Below, one piece after another: positions 2,556 to 42,584 of a DNA stretch of 42,665 bases. This DNA is from a virus: positions 1 to 42,665 of IMG/VR virus record IMGVR_UViG_3300037225_001393, one strand, 5' to 3'. A program made the translations under genes and the position numbers. The notes below the pieces were generated by a model. It was not told the DNA's origin and ran no database searches. It saw nothing but the letters and a program-made list of their open reading frames with translations. Position 1 is the stretch's first letter, and each line of letters begins with the position of its first letter.

Positions 2556-2765
2556 TTAATGAGTATTTGCTTGTCCAATTTCTCGTTTTAGCTTTACGAT
2601 TGATTCTTCGATATGACTTCGAATATTCGAATCAATATTTCTATTAATCATATTCCAATCTTGAATATCTGCCAATAATGACAATGCATCATTTAAATTT
2701 TTGACATTAATATGTGTCATGCTTCGTTTTTCAAAAATTTTTTCTGCTATTTTTGATACACACAT
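2556..2765 (-). CDS. Hypothetical protein with SKIAEKIF N-terminus
   Basis: 69 residues from ATG 2765, which follows a strong GGAGGT site at about 7 bases. It opens MCVSKIAEKIFEKRS, one of several proteins in this block with a short amphipathic helix of the form IAxxIxKK at the very start (also those starting at 3742, 4874, 5188 and 6716). The rest is predicted helical (LLADIQDWNMINRNIDSNIRS). It lies four bases after the leucine-rich-repeat-like gene. Function unknown; see the finding on N-terminal tags. Confidence 0.6.
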   Translation of the reverse strand: MCVSKIAEKIFEKRSMTHINVKNLNDALSLLADIQDWNMINRNIDSNIRSHIEESIVKLKREIGQANTH

Positions 2766-2769
2766 AACT

Positions 2770-3297
2770 TTACCTCCGACATTTTGAAGTAACAATTGAT
2801 TCGACTATTTTTTCATCTTTTAAAATTCTAATTTTCAAAATTGTTTTTCCATTGATCGTCGGTTGGCCACGTTCATCCGTTCCTATTTCTTTAACAACGA
2901 TTTTTCTATTACGAAATTTTCCACCTAAAACTGTATCTCCGATTTCGATTGGTAAATTTATCTCCGAAATAATCTTTCTTGCCAATTTACTAACTTCAGA
3001 ATCAACTCTGACATCTCCGCCAACTTTGCAAACTGCTCTAACTTGTGCTTCTGTAAATTCGCCCGGATTATGCTGTATGTCTACAGTTCCCCCGATTCTT
3101 TTGGGAAAATATTCTAAAGTTGCAAATTGATTATCACTCACAAAAAGGTCTCCGCCAATTTCTTCTGGTAAATATTGAAATGATGATAGCTTATTCATGT
3201 AACAATGCAAATCTTTATTTATTTTTTTTTGAAATTCCCTTGAAACTAACCAATTCATTGTCATGGACATGATAGTCATCAGCTTCTTCGGATCCAT
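2770..3297 (-). CDS. Leucine-rich-repeat-like protein, 3' part (frameshifted)
   Basis: This frame continues the repeat protein begun at 3742. The real coding part starts near 3222; the first 23 residues of the open frame (MDPKKLMTIM...) are out-of-frame readthrough. After the shift come further repeats (LPEEIGGDLFVSDNQFATLE, FPKRIGGTVDIQHNP), then a compact C-terminal domain (IGDTVLGGKFRNRKIVVKEI...QPTINGKTILKIRI) of a type I associate with phage proteins. If one A of the A9 run at 3222-3230 were removed, both frames join into one protein of about 323 residues. Repeats of this kind usually bind proteins. This may be a decayed gene, a slippage gene or a sequence error. Confidence 0.6.
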   Translation of the reverse strand: MDPKKLMTIMSMTMNWLVSREFQKKINKDLHCYMNKLSSFQYLPEEIGGDLFVSDNQFATLEYFPKRIGGTVDIQHNPGEFTEAQVRAVCKVGGDVRVDSEVSKLARKIISEINLPIEIGDTVLGGKFRNRKIVVKEIGTDERGQPTINGKTILKIRILKDEKIVESIVTSKCRR

Positions 3298-3742
3298 AAA
3301 TCAAGTCTTTTAATCCACAAGAATTACAATGAAAGTCCTGAACTTTTCTTGGTGTGCCTTCTAATGACTCTAAGGGATTATGATTGCTTTGAAAACAACC
3401 ATTGACAACTTCTGGTGACCCGATATGGTTTTTCAACTTATTGCCACTGATAATCAAATAACCATTCAAAATTTTAGGCAAATTCAAAGTTCTTAAATCA
3501 GTCAATCCTGAATCTGATACATCGACTCCATCGCTAGAACTTTTAATTTCCATCGGAGGTTCACCGATTTTTTCTTCACATTTCAAATGTTCTTGATGCC
3601 ATTGAATCATATCTTGCATTTTTTGTCGCTTCAATGGACTTAATTCTGATTTTAAGTCAGAATTCAATTCATCGATATGGTCTTGATGCCAGTCATGACC
3701 CGCTTTTTTCAAAATGATTTCAGCAATATTTGCGATCGACAT
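3215..3742 (-). CDS. Leucine-rich-repeat-like protein, 5' part (frameshifted)
   Basis: From ATG 3742 (GGAGA upstream) the protein opens MSIANIAEIILKKAG, a member of the short amphipathic N-terminal tag set, then a charged helical region, then repeats of the form LxSLEGxPxxVxxFxCxxCGL and HVHDNELVSFKGI. The frame ends at TGA or TAA just after a run of nine A (minus strand, 3230-3222), giving ISKKNK and a stop. Reading with eight A instead continues smoothly as ISKKINKDLHCY into the 3' fragment. The repeats resemble the cysteine-containing leucine-rich repeats common in large phages. The intact product would be about 323 residues. Confidence 0.6.
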   Translation of the reverse strand: MSIANIAEIILKKAGHDWHQDHIDELNSDLKSELSPLKRQKMQDMIQWHQEHLKCEEKIGEPPMEIKSSSDGVDVSDSGLTDLRTLNLPKILNGYLIISGNKLKNHIGSPEVVNGCFQSNHNPLESLEGTPRKVQDFHCNSCGLKDLIYGSEEADDYHVHDNELVSFKGISKKNK

Positions 3743-3755
3743 ATTTTCTCCGACG

Positions 3756-4874
3756 TTAGTATCCAAACAAAACTTTTTTAAGCTCTTCAAAATCCTTAGA
3801 TGAAAATCCTTCGAAATATCCAGTAGCTTTCAACGTTTTAAAATCATGCTCGAGTTTTTCCATCCAGATTCCCGCAGCATGTGAAGCTTGATCAAGTTTT
3901 TCCATAAGGGGTTTCTTGACATAGTCTATGACTTTTTTATTATTTGTCTTCTTTAATCTTTCTAAAATTTGTTTTTTTACTTCAGCATTAGAATCCATGA
4001 CACTACCTCTTCTGCATAATTTTGAATCGGGATGCTCTTGACAATATAATCTTTTAAAATCGTCTGTTTGTTTTTCCCACCAATCGCTCTTAGGTCGTTC
4101 TTCTTGTTTTGGATTTAAAAATTTTTCTTTTAACTCTCGTTTCTTGTTTTCAAGTTCGCTTTGTTCTGGATTAATTGTTTTTATTTTATCTTTTAATTCC
4201 TGTTTCTTTTCTTCAAGTTTTTGTTCTTCTGGCTTTGCTTCATATTTTGTTTTTGATGTTGTCGGATTATCTGAATCAAAAATTTTTGAACTTGCTTGTC
4301 CATCATAATCATCTTCTTTGGGATGCGGAACATTGACAACATTAAATTTAACTTTAGAATGCTTTGTAATTAATGTTGAAACAGCGTTTGTATTTGATTT
4401 ACTATCATCAACGAATTGAACATTGCTATGTCCACCATCTACAATTGCTTTATCAATCCATGATGCTTTATCAAAAGGGTTGCTACTTTCTAAAGCAACT
4501 ACGTCAACATTTGAAATGCCTTCAGATTCAAGATATTTTTTAACCGCTGAAGCAGAGCCTTTGGGTCTTGCCGTAAGAATGACAACTTTTGAATCACTGT
4601 TTTTAGCATGATTCTTTAAGTCATCAAAATTCTTTTTAATTTTTCTGGGTTTAACGACATTATTGAAAGCACTGAAATCAATCGTTATGCCGCTAGTTGG
4701 TTTAAAATGTGCAAATGTTGCCGAATTCATTGAAACTTTTTCAGTTTCAGTTTCAACAGAAACTTCGGCATAAGACGAAACTAATGTATCATCAAAATCA
4801 TAGACAACAAGATTATTTTTACCTGCTTTTTTAAAAATTCTTTGCTCAAAAAGAATAGAATCGATAATATTCAT
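3756..4874 (-). CDS. HAD-family phosphatase with long charged C-terminal region
   Basis: 372 residues from ATG 4874, which overlaps the previous stop as ATGA. After the N-terminal tag (SILFEQRIFKKAG) comes a HAD domain: DFDDT at 26-30 with nucleophile D26 and acid D28, ILTARP near 101-106 (motif II), and FVDDSKSN near 157-164 (motif IV). Residues about 200-290 are Lys/Glu-rich and probably coiled coil; the rest is helical. HAD enzymes hydrolyse phosphomonoesters, and a polynucleotide 3'-phosphatase or nucleotidase is plausible. The substrate is not shown by the sequence. Confidence 0.75.
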   Translation of the reverse strand: MNIIDSILFEQRIFKKAGKNNLVVYDFDDTLVSSYAEVSVETETEKVSMNSATFAHFKPTSGITIDFSAFNNVVKPRKIKKNFDDLKNHAKNSDSKVVILTARPKGSASAVKKYLESEGISNVDVVALESSNPFDKASWIDKAIVDGGHSNVQFVDDSKSNTNAVSTLITKHSKVKFNVVNVPHPKEDDYDGQASSKIFDSDNPTTSKTKYEAKPEEQKLEEKKQELKDKIKTINPEQSELENKKRELKEKFLNPKQEERPKSDWWEKQTDDFKRLYCQEHPDSKLCRRGSVMDSNAEVKKQILERLKKTNNKKVIDYVKKPLMEKLDQASHAAGIWMEKLEHDFKTLKATGYFEGFSSKDFEELKKVLFGY

Positions 4875-5188
4875 TGTTTTTGCTCTTCTTCTCTTCTCAT
4901 GGCTCCCGTGCAAAAATTGAAAACGGCTTTATAATCATCATAAGCGGGTTCACGCTTCCAAGACATGATATACAGTTCTTTAATTTTTCGCAAAGCTGCA
5001 TCCATTACATCTGCAGGACCATCGCCGTTGACAAGTTTCAGTTTATCTTTAGAACCCGGAATAGCATTGATAAATCCCTGCTTTTCAGGTTGATTCCAGT
5101 CGATTTGGCCAGTTTCAGGACTATCAATAGCCCACCATCCAGCTCTCTTAATAATTTGTTTTGCTAATTTGATAATTTTTTCGTTCAT
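4871..5188 (-). CDS. Conserved-looking hypothetical protein
   Basis: 105 residues. It begins MNEKIIKLAKQIIKRAG, another amphipathic N-terminal tag, followed by a compact region with NGDGPADVMDAALRKI and WKREPAYDDYKAVFNF, which looks like a folded small domain. It overlaps the patatin gene upstream and the HAD gene downstream by ATGA at both ends, so all three are translationally coupled. No family name can be given. Confidence 0.6.
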   Translation of the reverse strand: MNEKIIKLAKQIIKRAGWWAIDSPETGQIDWNQPEKQGFINAIPGSKDKLKLVNGDGPADVMDAALRKIKELYIMSWKREPAYDDYKAVFNFCTGAMRREEEQKQ

Positions 5189-8662: not shown

Positions 8663-10582
8663 TTACTGCAAGATGCTATCTATGATCCTCGACGTGTTTT
8701 CTTTTCGAAATAACTCGACATCGAAACTGACATTTGATTGACTCATTGCGATTTGAGCATCGATATTTGTCGATCTGTCTTTCGATGCGATTTTTCCGAT
8801 ATTTCTGGAATCATCTTGTATGGCTTGTTTTAATCCAAGATTAAATTTCGAAATAAGCTCCAAATTTCCTGTTTCCTTAATTTCATTAGCAAATTTTTCG
8901 ATATAGTCCTTTGTCACTAAATTTGTTGCCTTTTCGAAAATCTTTTTTGCAGCTCTGGGTGAACGAGCGATAGGGTTATTAGAAATTAACAAACTGACTT
9001 TGTTGCATCGTCCTTTTTCATTGCAAGAACAACCTTGACATTTAGAATTCGACTTTACAGATGAAATTAATGAACTACCAACATGTTTAAGATTATTGAA
9101 AGCATCTTGCATTTCATTAGACTGACAATTTGCATAAATATTCGAATCAATAAAAATGTATCCCAATTGTCCATAATGCTTTTGCAATAAATGTTCGTTT
9201 TCAAGCAAAAACGACTTGTTAGCAAATTTCTTTGAAATTTCAGATTTTACTTCTGATAATGACTTTCCATTTGTCAACATATCAAAAGCAACCTTGTGAG
9301 GTCCGTAGCATTTGTCGATATTAGCATATTTCAATAGAAATGTCGTTGTCAGTTCTTTTCCATAGACTTTTGTCAAAGATTTACAAATCGTAGAAAAAGA
9401 CTTCCCACGATTCAATAATCCAGCCACAAAACTTGCAATCTTTGTCAGTTTGGATTCTATACTTTCTGACGCAGAAACAGAGGGCAAAACTTCTCTGTTT
9501 GCATCAGTACTGGGTTGAACAGCAACATTGCTAACATATGAGAAATTCTGTGAATTTTCTTTTTGTAAAAATCCTGCGTATTTCTTAATATCATCTCTGT
9601 ATTCTTCATAAAAACTATTGAATGCTTTTCTTCCGTAGACTTTCTTAATTGCAATTTTGATTTTTATTGCAGAACTGCCTTTACGAAGCATCTGTTTATA
9701 AAGATCTAGAATCTCTTCATGTTTAGCTAAAATTTTTCTGCAGCTATTTTTATTGTCATTATTTTCTTTGTTAATCGTTACATCAAGGGTATTGACATCT
9801 TCAACTGCTAACTTAGTCATTTTGCTATCTACTCGTCCTCTTGCTCTGCGAATTTTGCCCAATGAAAAAACAAATGACAATGTTTCTTTCAAAGGGTCTT
9901 GATCTTCAAGCTTCTTTGAAACTTCATCAATTTCTTCTTTTGAAACAAAATCTAACTTCGCCAATTTATTGACGATTTCTTTCGCAGAACTCTTGGTTAT
10001 TGATTGAACTTTGGATGTAAGAACTAACGATTTTACATCTTCATCATCTTTCAAATTTGCAAATCCCAAAGATGAATACTTATTAAGTTCAACTTGAACA
10101 GACGCTTCCATGAATTTTCTAACAATATCACCGGGATATTTTTTGTTCAGAATTTTTTGAATTTCATTAGGATGTTTTCCTTCATACAGCAAGCTATTGA
10201 AATCTTTTTCAATTTTGTCTAACTGAGTTGCAATGAAAGTCCTTTTCTTTTTATCAGCAGTATGGCGATTCATATTGCCTGGTTCACGATCAACATCGAC
10301 AGATTCATACGAATGATATAACGCAGTTTTTGATTCTGGTTTAAAATTCATGTCGATAGGGTCGATATCTTCGATCTGGTCATCAGGTACTGTATCAGTC
10401 ATTTGAGTTGTTTCAGTATCTTCAGCTAATTTGCTCAAAAATTCTGACATCGTTGAAGTTCTTTCTTCAACAATACCCGAAATACCACGATCATAGATAC
10501 TATTAATTGATTGAGTTGAATCAATCGTTGTATCTTCGGCTAACTTATCTAACCAATTGGGTTCACGTTCAATCTTGCCCAT
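8663..10582 (-). CDS. Large tagged protein of unknown function
   Basis: 639 residues. The start MGKIEREPNWLDKLAEDT carries the tag shared with the genes at 11043 and 11345; a second copy of its core (EFLSKLAEDT) lies at 47-56. The rest is mainly helical and charged, with repeated stretches about length and shape of KxxxxKKxYGxxxxxxFxxEY (near 315 and again near 420-450), which may be a degenerate repeat domain. A cysteine cluster (CQGCSCNEKGRC) lies near residue 525 and may bind metal. GGGAG precedes ATG 10582. Candidate internal virion protein by analogy with tagged T4 head proteins; this is inference. Confidence 0.7.
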   Translation of the reverse strand: MGKIEREPNWLDKLAEDTTIDSTQSINSIYDRGISGIVEERTSTMSEFLSKLAEDTETTQMTDTVPDDQIEDIDPIDMNFKPESKTALYHSYESVDVDREPGNMNRHTADKKKRTFIATQLDKIEKDFNSLLYEGKHPNEIQKILNKKYPGDIVRKFMEASVQVELNKYSSLGFANLKDDEDVKSLVLTSKVQSITKSSAKEIVNKLAKLDFVSKEEIDEVSKKLEDQDPLKETLSFVFSLGKIRRARGRVDSKMTKLAVEDVNTLDVTINKENNDNKNSCRKILAKHEEILDLYKQMLRKGSSAIKIKIAIKKVYGRKAFNSFYEEYRDDIKKYAGFLQKENSQNFSYVSNVAVQPSTDANREVLPSVSASESIESKLTKIASFVAGLLNRGKSFSTICKSLTKVYGKELTTTFLLKYANIDKCYGPHKVAFDMLTNGKSLSEVKSEISKKFANKSFLLENEHLLQKHYGQLGYIFIDSNIYANCQSNEMQDAFNNLKHVGSSLISSVKSNSKCQGCSCNEKGRCNKVSLLISNNPIARSPRAAKKIFEKATNLVTKDYIEKFANEIKETGNLELISKFNLGLKQAIQDDSRNIGKIASKDRSTNIDAQIAMSQSNVSFDVELFRKENTSRIIDSILQ

Positions 10583-10654: not shown

Positions 10655-10843
10655 TTAAAACCAAGCGATTGTTCTTGTATTATTCCATCTGGGTTTTTCA
10701 CCGAATTGTTTAATTCCCTCTGAATCAACCACGTCATAAAAACGTTTCGACAGATAAATGTAAGTTTCACCAGCATCATAACTTTTCGAATCGACAAACG
10801 GATCCTTTAAATTAAATTTCACAGTAAATTGAAATTCAAAATA
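10655..10843 (-). pseudogene. 3' fragment of a frameshifted tagged protein
   Basis: This 62-codon open frame (YFEFQFTVKFNLKDPF...RTIAWF) follows TGA at 10846-10844 and has no own start or ribosome site. It reads as the missing C-terminus of the tagged protein starting at 11043: adding one base near 10844 joins SYRGPD to YFEFQFTV and gives a protein of about 129 residues with a beta-rich end. The rest of the gap down to the next gene (10583-10654) holds a direct repeat CCTGCAAG. Confidence 0.55.
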
Positions 10844-11043
10844 TCAGGACCTCTGTAACTTTTCTTTCCAAGACTGCAATAGACTAATTTTGAAGTTACT
10901 GAAGACATGAAATTGCTTATGGCAACCGAAAATTCTGCTTCGTCAGCAAAAGTTTTCGCAGCAGCTTTCTTTTTTGATGCTGATTTTATAGTGTCTTCAG
11001 CTAATTTATCCAGCCAATTTGGTTCTTGATTGATTTTGCTCAT
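10819..11043 (-). CDS. Tagged protein, 5' part (frameshifted)
   Basis: Starts at ATG 11043 (MSKINQEPNWLDKLAEDT). The first 22 residues differ from those of the next upstream gene product at only three positions. After the tag is a short Lys/Ala linker and then SVAISNFMSSVTSKLVYCSLGKKSYRGPD, after which the frame runs into NILNFNLL-type sequence and TGA. The better continuation is in another frame (10655-10843). The open part codes for 74 residues. Function unknown. Confidence 0.6.
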   Translation of the reverse strand: MSKINQEPNWLDKLAEDTIKSASKKKAAAKTFADEAEFSVAISNFMSSVTSKLVYCSLGKKSYRGPDILNFNLL

Positions 11044-11063
11044 TTGATTTCTCACTTTATTAG

Positions 11064-11345
11064 TTAATTATTTTCTTTCGGCATTTCACGAGCTATACTT
11101 TTTGCAAGCTCTTTCCATTTAATCGTTCCTAACGAAAACAAAGCGTCCATTATTACGGCTTTCAATGCTTTATCATGAATTGAATCATTTACTTCATCTT
11201 TCATGAAATCTTTTACTTCTTTTTCAGACCAGTCAGCAGCATTGGCAATACGATTCCGTCGATCTGCCCTTTTGTCAGAAGCGGACTTCATCGTATCTTC
11301 GGCTAATTTGTCTAGCCAAGTCGGACTTTGATTAATTTTACTCAT
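11064..11345 (-). CDS. Small tagged protein
   Basis: 93 residues from ATG 11345 with AAGGAG upstream. It opens MSKINQSPTWLDKLAEDT, then MKSASDKRADRR and a helical body (WSEKEVKDFMKDEVNDSIHD, then ALFSLGTIKWKELAKSIA). The tag matches its neighbour at 11043 while the bodies are unrelated. This pattern, one leader on different bodies, is what a sorting signal would produce. The body may be a small helical bundle. Confidence 0.7.
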   Translation of the reverse strand: MSKINQSPTWLDKLAEDTMKSASDKRADRRNRIANAADWSEKEVKDFMKDEVNDSIHDKALKAVIMDALFSLGTIKWKELAKSIAREMPKENN

Positions 11346-11379
11346 TTTATTTCTCCTTAGCTTAAGTTCTTTTTATAGT

Positions 11380-11817
11380 TTATCTATCAGAAATTCCACC
11401 CTCAACTTCTTTAAAAACTCTCATGACATGCTTTTTATCATCAGAAATTTTCCAAAAATCACTTGTCTTAAGGTCTTGATAAACATCTTTATCGGCTCTG
11501 TTGAAAACTCCAGCTTGCCTTAAAAGATGAGCGGTTCGAAGCGTCATTTTATTCGCATCTTTTTTCACTTTATTGAGCCCTTCAAAAAAGTCTGTTATAA
11601 CTTCTTTGGGACTATCTCCGCTTTCGATTCTGTCATTATGCTCTTTGACATAAGAATTGGGAATATCTTCGCTTTTGTCAAATTTCTTTAATAAATTTGT
11701 CGCATCTTCTTTCGTTTCGACACCGTTTTCTTGTGCCTTTTTCAGACCAATCAAATTTCCCCTTTTACCAAAAATCAGCTTATCAACAAATTCTGAGTTA
11801 CCATCACGTTGAAACAT
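11380..11817 (-). CDS. Hypothetical protein with FVDKL-type N-terminus
   Basis: 145 residues, charged, helical. It opens MFQRDGNSEFVDKLIFGKRG, a looser version of the tag (FVDKL in place of WLDKL). Downstream it has ATNLLKKFDKSEDIPNSYV and LRTAHLLRQAGVFNRADKDVY. AAAGGAGC precedes ATG 11817, and that site lies inside the end of the small gene at 11819-11980. No family recognised. Confidence 0.65.
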   Translation of the reverse strand: MFQRDGNSEFVDKLIFGKRGNLIGLKKAQENGVETKEDATNLLKKFDKSEDIPNSYVKEHNDRIESGDSPKEVITDFFEGLNKVKKDANKMTLRTAHLLRQAGVFNRADKDVYQDLKTSDFWKISDDKKHVMRVFKEVEGGISDR

Positions 11818-11818
11818 T

Positions 11819-11980
11819 TTATGCTCCTTTATTCAAATTAAATAGTTCGTCTGCAAATGAAATAGGCTCTTTCGGAGCCTCAGCTTTGATTGATTCTTTT
11901 TTTACTTCTGCTTTTTTGTCCTGATATCCTAACTCTTCAAAAACTCTGTTTGTAAAGTCTGATACTGGTTCTAATCTCAT
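11819..11980 (-). CDS. Small acidic protein, 53 aa
   Basis: ATG 11980 has GGAGG 6 bases upstream and overlaps the previous stop as ATGA. The product runs MRLEPVSDFTNRVFEELG, a Lys/Glu-rich middle, then PISFADELFNLNKGA. The two ends each hold a short amphipathic segment (DFTNRVFEEL, SFADELFNL) like the tag cores of its neighbours. It ends one base before the next start. Good start signals and tight packing make it real; function unknown. Confidence 0.65.
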   Translation of the reverse strand: MRLEPVSDFTNRVFEELGYQDKKAEVKKESIKAEAPKEPISFADELFNLNKGA

Positions 11981-12168
11981 ATATTTTTCCTCCGCAATAA
12001 TTTATTTCCTTTTCTTTTCCATACATTGGGTAATGCTACATCTTTAAATGGGTCTTCTTTTTTGAATTCCATGTTGACACGATCAAAATACATAGCACCA
12101 GCACTTTTCTGAATTTCAGAAGTAATTTGATCGACGAATTTAGATTGTCCGGGTCTTGATATTTCCAT
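11977..12168 (-). CDS. Small hypothetical protein with FVDQI-type N-terminus
   Basis: 63 residues: MEISRPGQSKFVDQITSEIQ, then KSAGAMYFDRV and a basic tail (KRKGNKLLRRKNI). The start fits the tag family (FVDQI, and KSAG like KSAS in the neighbours). It lies two bases after the previous gene and overlaps the next by ATGA. Confidence 0.6.
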   Translation of the reverse strand: MEISRPGQSKFVDQITSEIQKSAGAMYFDRVNMEFKKEDPFKDVALPNVWKRKGNKLLRRKNI

Positions 12169-12170
12169 GA

Positions 12171-12722
12171 TTAAAATGCACCGTTTATTTCATAGTTTAT
12201 TTTTGCGTTACCAGATTCAACATCATCAAAGATTAAATTAGATTTGAAAATTTTGTCATTCAAATCTGCCTTCAATGTTTTGTATTCATTTTTCAAATAT
12301 GCGAAAATTTTGTTTTTTATTTTGATTGAATCGTTCTTTGTCACTTCAATTCGATTCGCTTTACGAAGATTTGACATATCTTTCTTAAAATTGACAATTA
12401 TCGTTCCAGAAATTTTATTAGCTTCAACATCTTTCTTATAAATACTTTCATCTTCTTTAATATCAATGTTATCAATATTATCAGTCTCTTGATATTCCAT
12501 TTCCTCTACTTTATCTGCTATTTCTTCAAGTGAAGCCTTCAAATTTTGAGCATATGAACGAAGAGCATCAGGTGAAGCTATAAGAATACCTTTACTGGCC
12601 TGTTTCATTTTCATCAAATCACGAACTGATTTGACAATGATATCATTAGAAAATCCGGCAATGACACTCTTTAAGATTGCTTTTACGAAATTGGGTTCAT
12701 TTTGCTGAGTTAAAATATTCAT
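12171..12722 (-). CDS. Hypothetical protein with FVKAI-type N-terminus
   Basis: 183 residues. It opens MNILTQQNEPNFVKAILKSV, related in layout to the tag family (xxPNFVKAIxKS). A helical segment (DALRSYAQNLKASLEEIADKVEEMEY) is followed by an acidic linker and a basic alpha/beta-looking end (ISGTIIVNFKKDMSNLRKANRIEV). The start overlaps the upstream stop as ATGA. No family recognised. Confidence 0.6.
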   Translation of the reverse strand: MNILTQQNEPNFVKAILKSVIAGFSNDIIVKSVRDLMKMKQASKGILIASPDALRSYAQNLKASLEEIADKVEEMEYQETDNIDNIDIKEDESIYKKDVEANKISGTIIVNFKKDMSNLRKANRIEVTKNDSIKIKNKIFAYLKNEYKTLKADLNDKIFKSNLIFDDVESGNAKINYEINGAF

Positions 12723-13162
12723 GCTTTAGCCTTTTGTTTTTGTTTTTCCAATGCTTTAGCTCTCATTTCTTTTTCGACGTATTTTATAGTAAAGTGAAGA
12801 GCATTATATGCAATTGCAATTTTCCATGGACTTTTTGGCATTAAACCGATCAACATCGTCTGAGCAACCTTTAATGTCTTTAATACAGCCTTTGTATAAA
12901 AATCCATTTCAGGTTCAGGTTCATCTTTTTTTTCAGTGGCTGTTTTAGTTAGTTGTTCGCATTCATCTATTTCATTACAAACGTTCGCGATTAATTCAAC
13001 TGCATTCAATACATGTTCATCGTCGCATTTTGATACAACTTTCGAATTGACAAAACAATTTAACGAAATATGCTTTTTCGATAATTCATTGATTGCAGAC
13101 TGATATACATGACCCACGTCATTATCGATAATTTGAGCAAAAATTTGATGTTTAACAGACAC
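12719..13162 (-). CDS. Hypothetical protein with C-terminal hydrophobic region
   Basis: 147 residues from GTG 13162 with AGAGG upstream. The N-terminal half is helical with scattered cysteines. Residues about 105-130 (VAQTMLIGLMPKSPWKIAIAY) are moderately hydrophobic but interrupted by charged and Pro residues, so a membrane segment is uncertain. The end is basic. A motif nearly identical to one upstream of the IS607 gene lies at 13195-13217, possibly its promoter. Function unknown. Confidence 0.6.
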   Translation of the reverse strand: MSVKHQIFAQIIDNDVGHVYQSAINELSKKHISLNCFVNSKVVSKCDDEHVLNAVELIANVCNEIDECEQLTKTATEKKDEPEPEMDFYTKAVLKTLKVAQTMLIGLMPKSPWKIAIAYNALHFTIKYVEKEMRAKALEKQKQKAKA

Positions 13163-13194: not shown

Positions 13195-13217
13195 ATAAAA
13201 ACTTTAGAAAATTTTAT
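13195..13217 (-). promoter_or_regulatory. Candidate promoter motif shared with 39508-39530
   Basis: Read on the minus strand, this 23-base AT-rich segment (core TTTTCTAAAGT) matches 39508-39530 (read on the plus strand) at 22 of 23 bases. Each copy lies upstream of a gene in the matching direction (12719-13162 here, the IS607 recombinase there). It overlaps the stop codon of the sigma-like gene. Confidence 0.35.
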
Positions 13218-13930
13218 GAAACATCTATTTCGGGTAAAACTGGCTTTTTCGACTGTGTGTGATATAAAGAATTATATTTACGAAGTAAAGTAAATACTTT
13301 AAGATACATTTTCGATTGATCTGCGACATAATTGTCATAAGATAATGTTAATTCTTTCATTTTTTTCAATCCGAGTCTGAATCTTGAACCAATCGCTTCG
13401 TATGGAATAAACTTTTTACCTTCCATTTTTGCTATTTTAACTGCAATTTTTCGCATATCATGAACTTTAAAATACTCTACCATTGCAGTTTTTTGTTTTT
13501 TTGTCACATGTTTAGTAAGAAAATTTTCCATGTCCTCGATATTTATATTTCTGAAGAAATGCATCATTTTAATTCTTGTCAATGCTCTGTTCTTATAATA
13601 ACAAATCATTTCTTGTGAAACGTGCAAAATTCTTCCGATTGTTTCTTGTTTCCTTTTTAAATAGAAAAACATCACGATGACTTGTTTTTCAATTTCCGGC
13701 AACATGTTATCGATGATGTACTTAATTTCTTCAATTCTTTTCTTTATTTCATAGTCATCAGTATGTTCCTGATTAGCATAAAGACCTTCAAAATCAGCAA
13801 AAAACAATTCGATTAGACGATTGTCAACACTTACCTCGCGTCTATTAAAATTATTATAGCCGCCCGATTGTTCAGCGTATTGAATGAAACTACGCTTATC
13901 AGCTTTGAATGAATCGCTATCAAAATTCAT
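13214..13930 (-). CDS. Sigma-region-4-like helix-turn-helix protein
   Basis: 238 residues from ATG 13930, which overlaps the previous gene's end. Residues 77-121 (LPEIEKQVIVMFFYLKRKQE, then TIGRILHVSQEMICYYKNRA) fit the region-4 HTH of sigma-70 factors, where a stretch of the form LPxxExxVxxxxY...SxxxIAxxLxxSxxxVxxxxxRAL contacts the -35 box. No region 2 is visible, so it would not be a full sigma by itself; the C-terminal 110 residues are basic and helical. It may regulate a phage gene class or work with the region-2 protein at 28110. Confidence is good for HTH, moderate for sigma kinship. Confidence 0.65.
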   Translation of the reverse strand: MNFDSDSFKADKRSFIQYAEQSGGYNNFNRREVSVDNRLIELFFADFEGLYANQEHTDDYEIKKRIEEIKYIIDNMLPEIEKQVIVMFFYLKRKQETIGRILHVSQEMICYYKNRALTRIKMMHFFRNINIEDMENFLTKHVTKKQKTAMVEYFKVHDMRKIAVKIAKMEGKKFIPYEAIGSRFRLGLKKMKELTLSYDNYVADQSKMYLKVFTLLRKYNSLYHTQSKKPVLPEIDVS

Positions 13931-14078
13931 TTTTTTGTTCAGATTCGAGTTTCGCTTTGCATTCAGTACATATTGACTGTCCATTAACAAAAAATTCAGC
14001 TTTCCTAGCTCCGCAAATTTGGCACATTTCATCAACAACTGCCATGGGTTGCGGAGATCCAGTTTTTAAAAAGCTCAT
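13920..14078 (-). CDS. Small zinc-ribbon protein
   Basis: 52 residues from ATG 14078, chosen for its strong GGGAGG site; a longer reading from 14102 lacks one. Two CxxC pairs (CQIC and CTEC) about 20 residues apart form a treble-clef or ribbon zinc site. It is coupled to the sigma-like gene, whose start overlaps its end, so a joint role in transcription is possible. Confidence 0.7.
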   Translation of the reverse strand: MSFLKTGSPQPMAVVDEMCQICGARKAEFFVNGQSICTECKAKLESEQKNEF

Positions 14079-14128: not shown

Positions 14129-14710
14129 TTATTTATCACCGAAGTACAGGTAAGAACTGTCAATTTCAAAAAATCTTGATGCTGCGTTCTTCAAATCAAC
14201 AGCCGTCGTCGTCAATACACCATAAATTTCGACACTAATGCTTTGTAATTTCAAAAATTCAACTAATGGCACAAAATCACCGTCACCTGTTACAATAGCA
14301 ACAGTATCAAGTCCATTCTTTGCTTCCATGATATCAATTGTCATTTCAATATCTAAGTTTGCTTTTTGAGATCCATCAGCTCGAGTTTTTAATGATTTCG
14401 AAACAATATCGTACTTTAATTGCTTGAGTAATTTAACAAATTGACTATTATCCACGTCACTATTGACAAGATATGTTTTCGCAGTAATTAAATGACGATT
14501 TCGAACCGTATTTTCAAGTAGCTTTTTGAAATCAATTTTTCCGCCAAGTGATTTTGAACTATAATAGATGTTTTGGATGTCTACAAACAGCCCAATTCTC
14601 TCGTCTTGAGTACTTCTGTTTTCTTGCCTAATTTGAAACAAAAAATCATCTTTGATAGCTTCCGTTGATTCTAAAAACTTTTGATATGTTTTGATTTTGC
14701 TATCTTTCAT
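14129..14710 (-). CDS. NYN-domain (LabA/DUF88-type) predicted nuclease
   Basis: 193 residues. The NYN/PIN-like fold is shown by LFVDIQNIYY at 41-50 (Asp44, Asn47), KANLDIEMTIDI (Asp residues at the metal site) and TGDGDF with a following SVEIYGV strand. The fold is that of metal-dependent RNases; these residues are the expected acidic cluster. The first 35 residues are a helical extension. It lies just upstream of no operon break with SbcC (start 14710 follows SbcC's stop by 11 bases, GAGGT site). It may degrade or process RNA. Confidence 0.85.
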   Translation of the reverse strand: MKDSKIKTYQKFLESTEAIKDDFLFQIRQENRSTQDERIGLFVDIQNIYYSSKSLGGKIDFKKLLENTVRNRHLITAKTYLVNSDVDNSQFVKLLKQLKYDIVSKSLKTRADGSQKANLDIEMTIDIMEAKNGLDTVAIVTGDGDFVPLVEFLKLQSISVEIYGVLTTTAVDLKNAASRFFEIDSSYLYFGDK

Positions 14711-31141: not shown

Positions 31142-31353
31142 GCTAATTTTTGTTCCTTTTTAGCCCATTCGATACTTTCGCGAATATCTTTTTCAGACCA
31201 ATACGGTTTATCACACATACAACAAATAGGCTGAATCGATCCGCTGACGACACTTCCGCAATGAGGACAAGCAATTGTGCCGATTGGAGATTTAACTTCC
31301 ATGGCTATTTTGCCCATCGTTTTTCTGTTCCATCCAGGAAATTTTTGTTTCAT
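31138..31353 (-). CDS. Small zinc-ribbon protein
   Basis: 71 residues with a zinc ribbon (CPHC and CCMCDKPY, about 15 residues apart) after a basic N-terminus (MKQKFPGWNRKTMGKIAM). The end is an acidic helix (SEKDIRESIEWAKKEQKL). It overlaps trigger factor and the Cas4-like gene by ATGA at both ends. Confidence 0.65.
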   Translation of the reverse strand: MKQKFPGWNRKTMGKIAMEVKSPIGTIACPHCGSVVSGSIQPICCMCDKPYWSEKDIRESIEWAKKEQKLA

Positions 31354-32621
31354 TCTTTAAATTTTGCTTCCAAAAATGTAATAACTTTATCATTTAAGAT
31401 TGTCTGCATGATAATGTTCTTCATCCTTGAATTATCTCCCTTCAAAGCTTTTCGTCTTTCTTCTGCTTGTTGATCGGGCAAATCTTCAAGGTACTTTTCA
31501 ATGTCATCGTCGTTGACTTTAATCTCACATTTTTCTGCAACTTTTGTGAAAATGATTGATGTTTTAATTAACATTTCTGCATTATCTCGTGAGTTCTGTT
31601 TAAAATATTCTTTTCCCATAGCGTCTTTTTTCAAAAATGTCTCTTCTGTTGTTCCCATTCTATGTAAAAATGATCTCCATTCTTTTTCCAGTTCTTGTTC
31701 AATCATATCCAGCGGAGTCGGTGTAAATTTTGAAGCATCAATTAATTTTTTGATCATGTCAAATTTAAATTCATTGTTGTAAGTTTTTGTTTTTTGTGTT
31801 TTTATTTCATCAGTAATTTTACTTTTTAATTCTTCGATATTAGCACAGTTCTTTTTTTGCAAAATTTCTTCAATTTCAGGCAAAATCAATTGTTTAATCG
31901 AATTAACTTTGACATTAAATTTTGCCTTTTTTCCCGCTTTAGAATTATCTCGATAATCTGCAGGAAAAGTGACATTAATTTCTTTCGTTTCGTCTATTAA
32001 CATACCGACGATTTGATCTTCAAAATTATCGACAAATTGTTTCTTTCCGTCCTTGTTTAATTCTAATCGATAGTTCTTAGATGAACCGCCCTTAAATGAT
32101 TCTTTTTCATTTTCAAGAAAACCTTCAAAATCAATATACACACAATCATGATCGATAACCATGGTTCTTCCTGCATCAATTTCCTTGATTGCTCGTTTTT
32201 GTTCAAGTTTGATTTGCTCATCAATTTCTTCATTTGTTGCATCAATTTCTTTCTTTTCAAAAGTTAATGTTTCTAAATCGACTAATTCAACTGTCGGTTT
32301 TACTTCACCAATGAATTCTAATTTCAATGGGCTTCTATCTTTCAAATCACCGAATATTTTAAAATTTCTTGAACTAATGATTCCCAGCATATCAGCAGCA
32401 TTAAAATAAACATCGTCGATTAATTGTTTGTACAATTTTTCTACACCAATTCTTAATTCAGCAACATCACGAGGAACATGTCCTTGTCTAAAGCCAGGAA
32501 CTAGCGGCAAAGTATCTTGAATAGCATCAAAAATCGTTTCTTTTCTTTTCAAAACATCTTCTGCATCGATTTCGATTGTGAATAGCTGTGGCTGAGACAA
32601 AACTCGACTTTGAATTTTCAT
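31350..32621 (-). CDS. tig: Trigger factor (ribosome-associated chaperone)
   Basis: 423 residues, about the size of bacterial trigger factor (432 in E. coli). The ribosome-docking signature VPGFRQGHVP lies at 41-50; the middle region (about 155-250) has the FKBP-like PPIase layout (DFEGFLENEKESFKGG, FVDNFEDQIVGMLIDE, INVTFPADYR); the long helical C-terminal arms follow. GGGGAG precedes ATG 32621. It would bind the L23 protein at the exit tunnel and meet new chains. A phage-coded full-length trigger factor is unusual. It sits within the replication operon. Confidence 0.9.
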   Translation of the reverse strand: MKIQSRVLSQPQLFTIEIDAEDVLKRKETIFDAIQDTLPLVPGFRQGHVPRDVAELRIGVEKLYKQLIDDVYFNAADMLGIISSRNFKIFGDLKDRSPLKLEFIGEVKPTVELVDLETLTFEKKEIDATNEEIDEQIKLEQKRAIKEIDAGRTMVIDHDCVYIDFEGFLENEKESFKGGSSKNYRLELNKDGKKQFVDNFEDQIVGMLIDETKEINVTFPADYRDNSKAGKKAKFNVKVNSIKQLILPEIEEILQKKNCANIEELKSKITDEIKTQKTKTYNNEFKFDMIKKLIDASKFTPTPLDMIEQELEKEWRSFLHRMGTTEETFLKKDAMGKEYFKQNSRDNAEMLIKTSIIFTKVAEKCEIKVNDDDIEKYLEDLPDQQAEERRKALKGDNSRMKNIIMQTILNDKVITFLEAKFKE

Positions 32622-39595: not shown

Positions 39596-40216
39596 ATGGA
39601 CAAAGAATTTTTAAAACCAAGAGAATTTATTAAACTGATAAATATCACATACAGAACGTTCTGGAATTGGGTCAAATCAGGAAAAATAAATGTGATAAGA
39701 ACTCCGACTAATACATACTTGATTCCGAAATCAGAACTTTTGCGGTTAAGTTTGATAAAACATGAAGTTGTTAAAAAATTCAATATCATTTATGCTCGAG
39801 TCTCAAATACAAAACAAAAAGATGATCTAAATCGTCAAATTGAAAGACTGGCACAATTCTGCTCTGTCAACAGCATTGAAGTCGATGAAACATTCAGCGA
39901 AATTGCATCAGGAATGAACTTTAGTCGTTTGAAGTTTAATGAAATCATAACGCTAATGACTGAAAATAGAATTTCAAAAATTATCATCGAACATAAAGAC
40001 AGATTTTGTCGGTTCGGATTTGAATTGTTTGAGAATCTTTCAAAAATCTACAATTTTGAATTTATCATAACAACAAACAGTCCGCTAGAAATTGAAAGCT
40101 TTGAAAATGAATTAACAAACGACTTGATCTCTATCATTCATCATTTTAGCATGAAAATGTACTCAAATCGACGTAAAAAATTTAAAGAACTTGCTAACAA
40201 TCTAAGACGATCATGA
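39596..40216 (+). CDS. tnpA: IS607-type serine recombinase (TnpA)
   Basis: 206 residues. An N-terminal MerR-type HTH (KPREFIKLINITYRTFWNWV, TYLIPKSELLRL) is followed by the serine recombinase domain: YARVSNTKQKDDLNRQ with catalytic Ser70 and DRFCRFGFELFE with Arg residues. The layout, HTH first and short catalytic domain second, is that of IS607 TnpA. It inserts and excises the element with little target choice. The end overlaps tnpB by ATGA. Confidence 0.9.
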   Translation: MDKEFLKPREFIKLINITYRTFWNWVKSGKINVIRTPTNTYLIPKSELLRLSLIKHEVVKKFNIIYARVSNTKQKDDLNRQIERLAQFCSVNSIEVDETFSEIASGMNFSRLKFNEIITLMTENRISKIIIEHKDRFCRFGFELFENLSKIYNFEFIITTNSPLEIESFENELTNDLISIIHHFSMKMYSNRRKKFKELANNLRRS

Positions 40217-41568
40217 ACACAATTTCTTTGCCATACGGGGCTTCTTCAGAAAATTCTGACATTATCTTCAAATATATGAAGAATCAAAATAATGTCATCA
40301 AATTTCTGTACAATCGTCTGTCTGAAAATAAGGATCTTTGTCAAAAAAGTCTAACTTCTTTAGTCAATTCAATGAACAATATTTTTGTCGGCTCTTGGCT
40401 AAAACAAAGTGCAGTTTATAAAGCTCAAGACCTCATCGAACATTCTGAAAAGATCATTTTTGGAGGCAAAAAATTATTTTTTGAAAGACAAAACAACAAA
40501 ATTAACAAAGAAGACTTTCAAAAACAAAAACAAATGCCGCTTTTCATTATCGGAGAAAAGAAAAAACTTGGAAACAGACTTATCAAATTTCAAATTATCG
40601 AAAACAATAAAATTATCCTAAAGCTAGACAAAAAACTACATCTTGAATTGACCTTGCCCAAGCTCAGAAATAATTATAAAAAGATTTTGTACAAACTTCA
40701 ACGAAAAGCCGAACAGGGCAAATTAGCTGTTACATTTTCAGTTGATTTAAATAAATTGTACATTACTTATGATGAAGTCAAGTTTAGAGAATTAGATGAA
40801 AGAGTCATTATCAAAAATCGAATTATGACTTCGGACATGAATCCCAATTTTAATGGCTATTCAGTTATCGATTGGAAAAATCAAGACGAAAAGAATATCG
40901 TCAATACTGGCATGGTTTCGATCAAGAAAATTAATGATGCTGTTTTTGCGTTGAGAGCCAGTTCTGATAGTGCGATATCGAAATATTGGAATCATAAAAG
41001 AGAACATGAAATTTTTGAAATTGTCAAAAGATTAGTTCAAATTGCTGTCGATAATCATGTTGAATGCTTTTGTATTGAAAATCTGGACATCAAGCCCGGA
41101 GATAAAAGAAAAGGGTCAAAATATAACAGATTAGTCAACAACATGTGGTGTCGAGGAAAATTTGTCAGCAATTTAAAGAAAAGACTAAATCTTGCCGGAA
41201 TTAAATTGTATGAAATTTTTCCTCAATATTCCAGTTTTATTGGAAATTTGATGAATCGGACTTATCCTGATCCTGTTGCCGCAAGTATTGAAATGAACAG
41301 ACGTTGTTATTGTTTTAAGAATCAAATTAAGCCCGTTATTTTTCCTGATTTTGTCAAGTCAATTAAAATCATTAAACAGTCGTTGGAAGAATTGCGAAAT
41401 GGTACGAGTCTATTAATTGACAAAATAGGATCATGGAAAAAGTTCTATGACTGGGCCAAAAATTCTGACCTGAGGTACAGAATTTCTTTAGAGAATCTGA
41501 AAAGAAACTTTAAAGTTTTTAGATTAAGCAATAGAAAGTCACTAGTTGATTTATATCAATTTGCATAA
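40213..41568 (+). CDS. tnpB: TnpB-family RNA-guided nuclease without zinc ribbon
   Basis: 451 residues. The RuvC-like triad is complete: Asp208 in SDMNPNF, Glu289 in CIENLDI and Asp353 in YPDPVAAS. Between Glu289 and Asp353 lies NMWCRGKFVSNLKKRLNLAG then YSSFIGNLMNRT; the Cys-x-x-Cys zinc ribbon typical of TnpB is absent. TnpB proteins cut DNA guided by an RNA made from the element's right end, keeping the element in place. With the triad kept, the enzyme could be active. The N-terminal 190 residues form the recognition region and diverge from common TnpB. Confidence 0.82.
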   Translation: MNTISLPYGASSENSDIIFKYMKNQNNVIKFLYNRLSENKDLCQKSLTSLVNSMNNIFVGSWLKQSAVYKAQDLIEHSEKIIFGGKKLFFERQNNKINKEDFQKQKQMPLFIIGEKKKLGNRLIKFQIIENNKIILKLDKKLHLELTLPKLRNNYKKILYKLQRKAEQGKLAVTFSVDLNKLYITYDEVKFRELDERVIIKNRIMTSDMNPNFNGYSVIDWKNQDEKNIVNTGMVSIKKINDAVFALRASSDSAISKYWNHKREHEIFEIVKRLVQIAVDNHVECFCIENLDIKPGDKRKGSKYNRLVNNMWCRGKFVSNLKKRLNLAGIKLYEIFPQYSSFIGNLMNRTYPDPVAASIEMNRRCYCFKNQIKPVIFPDFVKSIKIIKQSLEELRNGTSLLIDKIGSWKKFYDWAKNSDLRYRISLENLKRNFKVFRLSNRKSLVDLYQFA

Positions 41569-41714
41569 CTTTTCTATTGTTTCAATTACCTTACAATTTG
41601 AAGTGAAAAGAGTCGACAAGAAAAAATTTAGGTCAAAATCATGATTGGTCTGTTTAAAGATATATAAGTTTTAAAAACATTAGCCTTTTGTTTTTAAATT
41701 TTGATATATTGACT
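41569..41714 (+). other. Region 3' of tnpB, candidate guide-RNA/right end
   Basis: 146 bases with no gene. In IS607 and IS605 elements the right end encodes the guide (omega) RNA. A short stretch (GTTTAAAGATATAT, 41652-41665) resembles GTTTAAATATAT at the left flank (39538-39549), which could mark matching element ends. No clear fold can be drawn by eye. Confidence 0.3.
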
Positions 41715-42584
41715 ATGTCAAAACGAGAAGATTACTTTAATGAATTCGTAGAAAAACTAAAATGTCAGTATAGTTCTGAAGCGACAATAAGGAATTATTC
41801 TTGTATAGTTAAGTCTTTTCTTTTCTATTGTTTGGGATTAACTGAAAATAAACCACAAATACTATTAAGAAAGTACATTCTTGATAAACTAAAAGACAAT
41901 GAGTCAAAAACTATCAATTTACATCGAGCTGCAATCATTAAATTTTTTAAATTAGTCAAGGGAATTTCTATAACTTGCAATGATGTTCCGAGACGAAAAG
42001 AATCAAAAAAGTTACCGAAAATCATTTCACAAGATAAAATTCAATTAGCAATTTCTAAAACTATGAATTTAAAACATCGATTAGAACTTATGCTATTTTA
42101 TTGTTGCGGATTGAGACTTTGTGAAATAGCGAGGTTAAAGCGAAAGAACGTGATTTTAGAAAACAATACATTGTGGTTGCAGGATACAAAGGGAAATAAA
42201 GAACGAATTGTTCCAATTCCGAAATCTGTTCAAAATTTACTTTATATGTATATCGAAAATTTTAAGCCAGAACAATTAGTTTTTGGTGAAATTGTGAATA
42301 GAACATTTCAAAAGGTTGTTGGACATGCATTTGACAAAATTGGAATTCATGCAACACCGCATATGTTAAGGCATTCTTTTGCGACTCATCAAATAATGAG
42401 TGGACAAAGTCCATTTAAAGTACAGTCGTGGTTGGGTCATAGTTCTATTCAAACAACACAAACTTATGTGCATTTAAGCCGAAGTTGCTTGATGAAATCT
42501 TCTGATTTACTGGAGACAAAAATAAAAGATCAAGACGTAGTGATAAATGAAAATTATATGAATAAAAGTTCATATAATAACTAG
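41715..42584 (+). CDS. Xer-type tyrosine recombinase
   Basis: 289 residues from ATG 41715; an in-frame TTG 27 bases earlier is possible. The active site is complete: Arg134 (CGLRLCEIARL), Lys159 (DTKGNKE), His216 and Arg219 (PHMLRHSFATH), His242 (LGHSSIQTT) and nucleophile Tyr251 (TYVHLS). It has an N-terminal SAM-like core-binding domain (1-95). XerC/XerD proteins of this size resolve dimers or integrate DNA; which one here is unclear. It is co-oriented with the IS607 genes. Confidence 0.88.
   Translation: MSKREDYFNEFVEKLKCQYSSEATIRNYSCIVKSFLFYCLGLTENKPQILLRKYILDKLKDNESKTINLHRAAIIKFFKLVKGISITCNDVPRRKESKKLPKIISQDKIQLAISKTMNLKHRLELMLFYCCGLRLCEIARLKRKNVILENNTLWLQDTKGNKERIVPIPKSVQNLLYMYIENFKPEQLVFGEIVNRTFQKVVGHAFDKIGIHATPHMLRHSFATHQIMSGQSPFKVQSWLGHSSIQTTQTYVHLSRSCLMKSSDLLETKIKDQDVVINENYMNKSSYNN

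Follow-up and report, generated by a model that had tools for sequence, protein, structure and literature searches.

A short amphipathic peptide is carried near the ends of proteins with unrelated bodies in the window (the 42.7-kb stretch of DNA analysed here, a fragment of a tailed phage, IMG/VR record IMGVR_UViG_3300037225_001393) and in three related contigs. To judge from the sequences, it is a real, selected and clade-wide terminal tag, most likely one for docking with a capsid-targeting-like action, and by its motif it lies outside the T4 family.

The initial annotation had described an 18-residue leader common to the proteins starting at 10582, 11043 and 11345, whose bodies were said to differ, and both observations held. 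The three strong leaders are:

11292..11345, minus strand: leader MSKINQSPTWLDKLAEDT on a 93-aa protein (ORF 11064-11345), identified by N-terminal scores, codon test and consensus match.
10990..11043, minus strand: leader MSKINQEPNWLDKLAEDT on a 74-aa protein (ORF 10819-11043), identified by N-terminal scores, codon test and consensus match.
10529..10582, minus strand: leader MGKIEREPNWLDKLAEDT on a 639-aa protein (ORF 8663-10582), identified by N-terminal scores, orthologue comparison and model.

The start of the 74-aa protein was taken as the ATG at 11043, not the GTG at 11055. A 55-aa ORF (window 10655-10822) overlaps the stop of this ORF (GTG over TGA), which could mean that the two are translationally coupled, that a product arises by frameshifting, or that the sequence contains an error.

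Pairwise N-terminal alignment scores for the three leaders were 112, 78 and 67, against a best score of 48 in shuffles (all pairs, 60 shuffles). Applied to T4, a test of this kind picks out MKTYQEFIAEA, the capsid-targeting pair known from that phage, with a score of 54. A scan with back-translated LDKLAEDT gave 13 matches, none near a shared N-terminal leader. Past residue 24, no similarity was detectable between 11043 and 11345 (shuffle p = 0.53) or between 11043 and 10582 (p = 0.77), and the value for 11345 and 10582 (p = 0.04) is not counted as homology because it is one among three tests. A weak co-linear trace between 11043 and 11345 extends to about residue 50, and these two could therefore be old, strongly diverged paralogues.

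Although 13-16 of the first 18 residues of the leader match between pairs, the number of identical codons at identical residues in the first 24 codons was 6, 5 and 5, where saturation predicts 8.4, 5.4 and 6.9. As agreement at synonymous codons does not exceed chance although the residues are kept, the codon comparison indicates that the leader peptide itself is under selection. This bears on the proposal that the shared leaders are functionless leftovers of recent duplication or gene-start shuffling, for which the two adjacent carriers, with 20/24 residues in common, might be cited. We consider this highly improbable, and neutral duplication was rejected because the synonymous sites are saturated though the residues are kept. 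In addition, the 60-base stretches preceding these starts have, by eye, no evident similarity except for the ribosome-binding site, and the pattern is maintained in four contigs.

Most window genes are on the minus strand. Downwards from RecA come a RuvC-like protein, SbcD-like and SbcC-like proteins, an NYN protein and a protein with sigma-70 region 4; a single unassigned gene then precedes the tagged block. Judged by proteins of replication and recombination, the nearest named relative of the window is Bacillus phage G (27-29 % identity). Pfam, PHROGs and NCBIfam contained no credible family for the tagged proteins, single-protein searches of viral contigs with the 639-aa, 93-aa, RecA and helicase proteins found zero relatives, and none were found in the genome contigs collection searched. 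The relatives used here were obtained through alignment searches only. An alignment search with the LR745208.1-matching domain (residues 449-565) of the 639-aa protein, hereafter the hub, recovered G001 (L026, 194.6 kb) and G002 (L027, 192.1 kb), which are 58 % and 53 % identical in that domain, and a third related contig, G005 (L051, 63.0 kb), was recovered with the sigma-factor alignment. The gene order in all three is sigma factor, 183-aa, 63-aa and 145-aa proteins, and hub, as in the window. In the window, the sigma-type gene is separated from the block by an extra gene at 12719-13162.

13214..13999, minus strand: sigma-70 region-4 protein, upstream of the tagged block in all four contigs.

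Recombination genes also adjoin the block in all four contigs, and in G002 some 75 kb separate it from the gene for the tail sheath; this location counts against a prohead role of the tag. When TATAAATA and TATAAAAAG were tried as late promoters, TATAAAAAG was found to precede 4/238 G002 genes (1.6 expected) and is also present at -32 of window gene 11345.

The hub carries the tag more than once:

8663..10582, minus strand: 639-aa hub, with tagged tails modelled with low confidence, a helical middle, and a C-terminal domain with GQLGYIFIDSNIYANC and CxxCxC motifs (orthologues, model and LR745208.1 homologue).
10415..10450, minus strand: second tag copy MSEFLSKLAEDT, hub residues 45-56, conserved in three orthologues.
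8669..8692, minus strand: third tag copy SRIIDSIL at the hub C-terminus, residues 631-638, its pattern conserved in three orthologues.

The leader MGKIEREPNWLDKLAEDT is an N-terminal addition of the window hub, missing from the three orthologues. The second copy inside this protein, which had been noted before, is real; its counterparts in the orthologues are TMPDYIEKLAEQ, TMPDYLDKLAEQ and LPDYIDKLATD, and because the orthologues have it, it is the older copy. The C-terminal copy had been missed, and reads SKIIDDVL, SKIIEDVL and SSIIENII in the orthologues. In G005, the hub (L051:11829-13619) appears to hold a second copy of the conserved C-terminal domain (GYVYVDKRGFKDC...CNDC). The hub also has a distant match in the 485-kb phage LR745208.1, to a protein of 614 residues (27.6 %, E 9e-4, hub residues 449-565). 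There, the homologue is preceded by a sigma factor and small genes and followed by a TnpB-like gene, then terminase and portal genes.

Looser versions of the leader had been listed for four further proteins of the block:

11776..11808, minus strand: tag RDGNSEFVDKL on the 145-aa protein (orthologues RDTESTFLENI, RDTQSKFLNDI and REGQSDFLDKL).
11380..11817, minus strand: the 145-aa tagged protein, with residues 1-31 of low confidence and a folded body, residues 32-136, without known structural match (model and fold searches).
12124..12156, minus strand: tag RPGQSKFVDQI on the 63-aa protein, 11977-12168 (orthologues RFDESNVLEKV, RSEESNILEKA and RAEQSSFLDKV).
12672..12698, minus strand: doubtful tag EPNFVKAIL on the 183-aa protein, 12171-12722 (orthologues SF[VI]HAVINA and NFIHAILNA).
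11930..11962, minus strand: unsupported loose version SDFTNRVFEEL on a 53-aa protein, 11819-11980 (positional counterparts without it).

Orthologues in three contigs bear out the versions at 11817 (SEFVDKL) and 12168 (SKFVDQI). The one at 12722 is doubtful, as NFVKAI, kept as F[VI]HA[IV] in the orthologues, continues into a conserved region and so may be part of the protein body. DFTNRVFEEL at 11980 had no support as a tag; its positional counterparts begin MDVKKIAKEIL and MNTKNVLMEIL.

Across the clade, the tag follows the consensus [RK]-x(1-4)-[EQNS]-[SP]-x-Phi-[LVI]-[DEN]-x-[ILVA] and sits at residues 2-8 of proteins that are not homologous. N-terminal matches number 5 in the window, 5 in G001 (one of which, 87539, may be due to chance), 3 in G002 and 2 in G005. 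The four contig sets contain only three other matches, one of them at the C-terminus of the G002 hub, and the motif is thus almost only N-terminal in the clade. None of 1479 N-termini in the controls (T4, 381 kb of phage G, and LR745208) matched. However, the consensus was written after the carriers had been seen, and these counts therefore describe specificity and are no independent test; independent support comes from the unbiased N-terminal comparisons and the orthologues. In G001, the unbiased comparison found two further carriers, MQKIARSNESSFLDSIVEAS and MQKIARPNESALLESILTQAS, 12-17 kb from the block (score 62, shuffle maximum 50), and in G002 the carriers MKNNRESSVLEGAIS and MNYHRESTVLEAAIAS adjoin the hub. 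Lineage-specific carriers are those at 11043 and 11345 in the window, 146031 and 151037 in G001, and 136528 and 136898 in G002. Tags are more alike within than between genomes (p = 0.016), but because this is lost when duplicates are collapsed (p = 0.19), a genome-specific dialect of the tag is only hinted at.

The tag helices are amphipathic, with a hydrophobic moment of 0.452 compared to 0.268 (sd 0.026) in shuffles. The AlphaFold2 model of the hub is poor overall (pLDDT 49), with separate helices at residues 10-16, 45-57 and 632-638 within low-confidence tails. In the model of the 145-aa protein (pLDDT 71.9), the low-confidence residues 1-31 precede the folded body; fold searches with this model gave no match at E <= 0.001, and neither a solved nor a viral relative. 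On these models the tag-bearing tails are probably disordered, though low confidence obtained with four sequences fits disorder and does not prove it.

The peptides that direct encapsulation in bacterial microcompartments are short amphipathic terminal helices on a flexible linker, and in these features the clade tag is like them. Tags might accordingly associate with one another as a homotypic helix bundle, yielding self-assembling carriers, as encapsulation peptides may do. Amphipathic helices near both hub ends and the weak similarity of tags within a genome would suit such mutual association. However, the clade tag occurs in a virus context, and no shell proteins were noticed among the genes read or scanned; we give self-association little chance.

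That one leader on unrelated bodies is a docking or sorting signal, as first proposed, is well supported by the selection on the peptide, by its presence in four contigs against none of the controls, by the tail helices and by the G001 carriers outside the block. The T4 consensus xxFIxEA, cited there as a parallel, is not matched by the tag. A capped amphipathic helix near the end of a flexible tail would bind one common partner, which would bring the small, unrelated, fast-changing accessory proteins and the hub to one place. Most likely this place would be the prohead core, with the tag acting like the T4 capsid-targeting sequence (CTS), and the hub, tagged near both termini, would act bivalently as a core protein or an adaptor. 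The chance that the tag is such a short docking helix, with one common and probably prohead-core partner, is in our estimate slightly below even. The common motif, the selection on the peptide and the fact that four contigs keep both its pattern and its position are read from sequence; the single binding partner, the prohead destination and what the hub does are inferred.

A capsid-targeting-like docking helix fits best because the distant hub homologue lies between a sigma factor and the terminase and portal genes in LR745208, which is the sole connection with head genes. Against a capsid role, searches of the G001, G002 and G005 fragments turned up no head gene: G001 and G002 had no match to terminase (one profile), Peptidase_S77 or portal, and G005 had no portal match. 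The tag could instead dock its carriers in a non-virion intracellular complex, such as a late-transcription or recombination assembly organized by the hub, and the lack of head genes on the fragments is compatible with this, as are the recombination genes and sigma-type factor beside the block in all four contigs. However, the replication and recombination proteins of these contigs are without the N-terminal tag, the LR745208 hub homologue sits with packaging genes, and the fast turnover of carriers is more cargo-like. We regard a non-virion complex as possible but rather unlikely.

The hydrophobic-acidic pattern of the tag is reminiscent of the clamp-binding tails of phage polymerases, and a sigma-type factor is adjacent, so binding to the sliding clamp or RNA polymerase was also considered. 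It is improbable, because the replication proteins do not carry the tag. In particular, the DNA polymerase and other clamp clients would be the carriers of a sliding-clamp peptide, and the DnaE-type polymerase of G001 is without it. The only terminal match, in the G005 polymerase, looks by eye like the end of a folded domain, and the three related contigs had no match to a bacterial-type clamp (PF02768).

The preferred reading of a docking helix directed to the prohead core draws on the T4 CTS as an analogy. In T4, ten N-terminal residues of IPIII suffice for head targeting, the internal proteins have diverging bodies but retain CTS-like leaders, and both termini of Alt undergo processing (PMC9026906). 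Like the CTS of IPI, IPII, IPIII and Alt, the clade tag is a short N-terminal peptide on diverged small proteins with unrelated bodies that turn over between relatives. It differs from the CTS in motif and length, is also found at the hub C-terminus and is without a conserved protease site. A prohead protease would cut after [LI]xE; the leaders of the window and the hubs of two relatives have LAE, and the G005 hub has LATD (KLATD). Likewise, gp53 and gp54, two head proteins of the giant phage SPN3US, have identical N-termini on diverged proteins (PMC5694885). However, the SPN3US propeptides are >100 residues long and cleaved, whereas the clade tag has about 11 residues, and gp53 and gp54 are still homologous (34 %). 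It is plausible that the tag loads cargo into the virion. If the tag does mark cargo, the proteins carried or recruited by uncultured huge phages could be listed from sequence alone, and a new short tag would be available for trials of protein loading into phage particles.

Bacillus phage G shares distant replication and recombination genes with the window and LR745208.1 shares the hub domain, and in both the tag is at no N-terminus examined. LR745208.1 has a different leader of its own, TLRSKLIRLAHENPALRPHLLPLLKEA (TLRSKLIRLAxxxPxLRxxLLPLLKEA), in which 28 nearly identical residues start about ten proteins whose bodies differ and whose genes are dispersed through the genome, with one internal copy within a 588-aa protein. 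The 11 occurrences are all in this record, and it was found in no other of 50,697 phage records.

14562, 20283, 30891, 226068, 274678, 351465, 351838, 389893, 398171 and 433231, and inside 431502, of LR745208.1: leader carriers (e.g. L086-L111).

As LR745208 has some 11 copies of a leader unrelated to the clade tag, leaders specific to one genome may be common among huge phages, and this leader suggests that the principle extends beyond T4-like phages. More broadly, and more tentatively, huge phages might use fast-evolving, genome-specific terminal docking helices (S-x-Phi-L-D in the clade, and that of LR745208) to address many unrelated proteins, not necessarily capsid cargo; we think this possible but doubtful.

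Other shared or familiar-looking starts were noted. In G002, several proteins (24551, 65795, 67174, 67814, 68755 and 104133) start with MHK[YH]S[DEN]NCxxC; four are beside tail genes, and some of the bodies are related and others not. At window 2556-5188, the genes with 5' ends at 2765, 3742 and 5188 start with an IAxxI[FIL]xK-type helix (3 N-terminal matches, 0.14 expected, the pattern having been picked after inspection). The NYN protein (window 14129-14710) starts with MKDSKIKTYQKFLEST, which is reminiscent of the T4 CTS, but this is probably coincidence because the orthologues keep it within a conserved domain.

At the end of the window (39596-42584, plus strand), resolvase-like, TnpB-like and tyrosine-recombinase-like proteins, named by eye, had no match in G001 or G002. 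The window also encodes a full trigger factor (31350-32621; N, FKBP and C domains by Pfam); BLAST found matches to it in G001 and G002, and G005 has a protein that looks similar.
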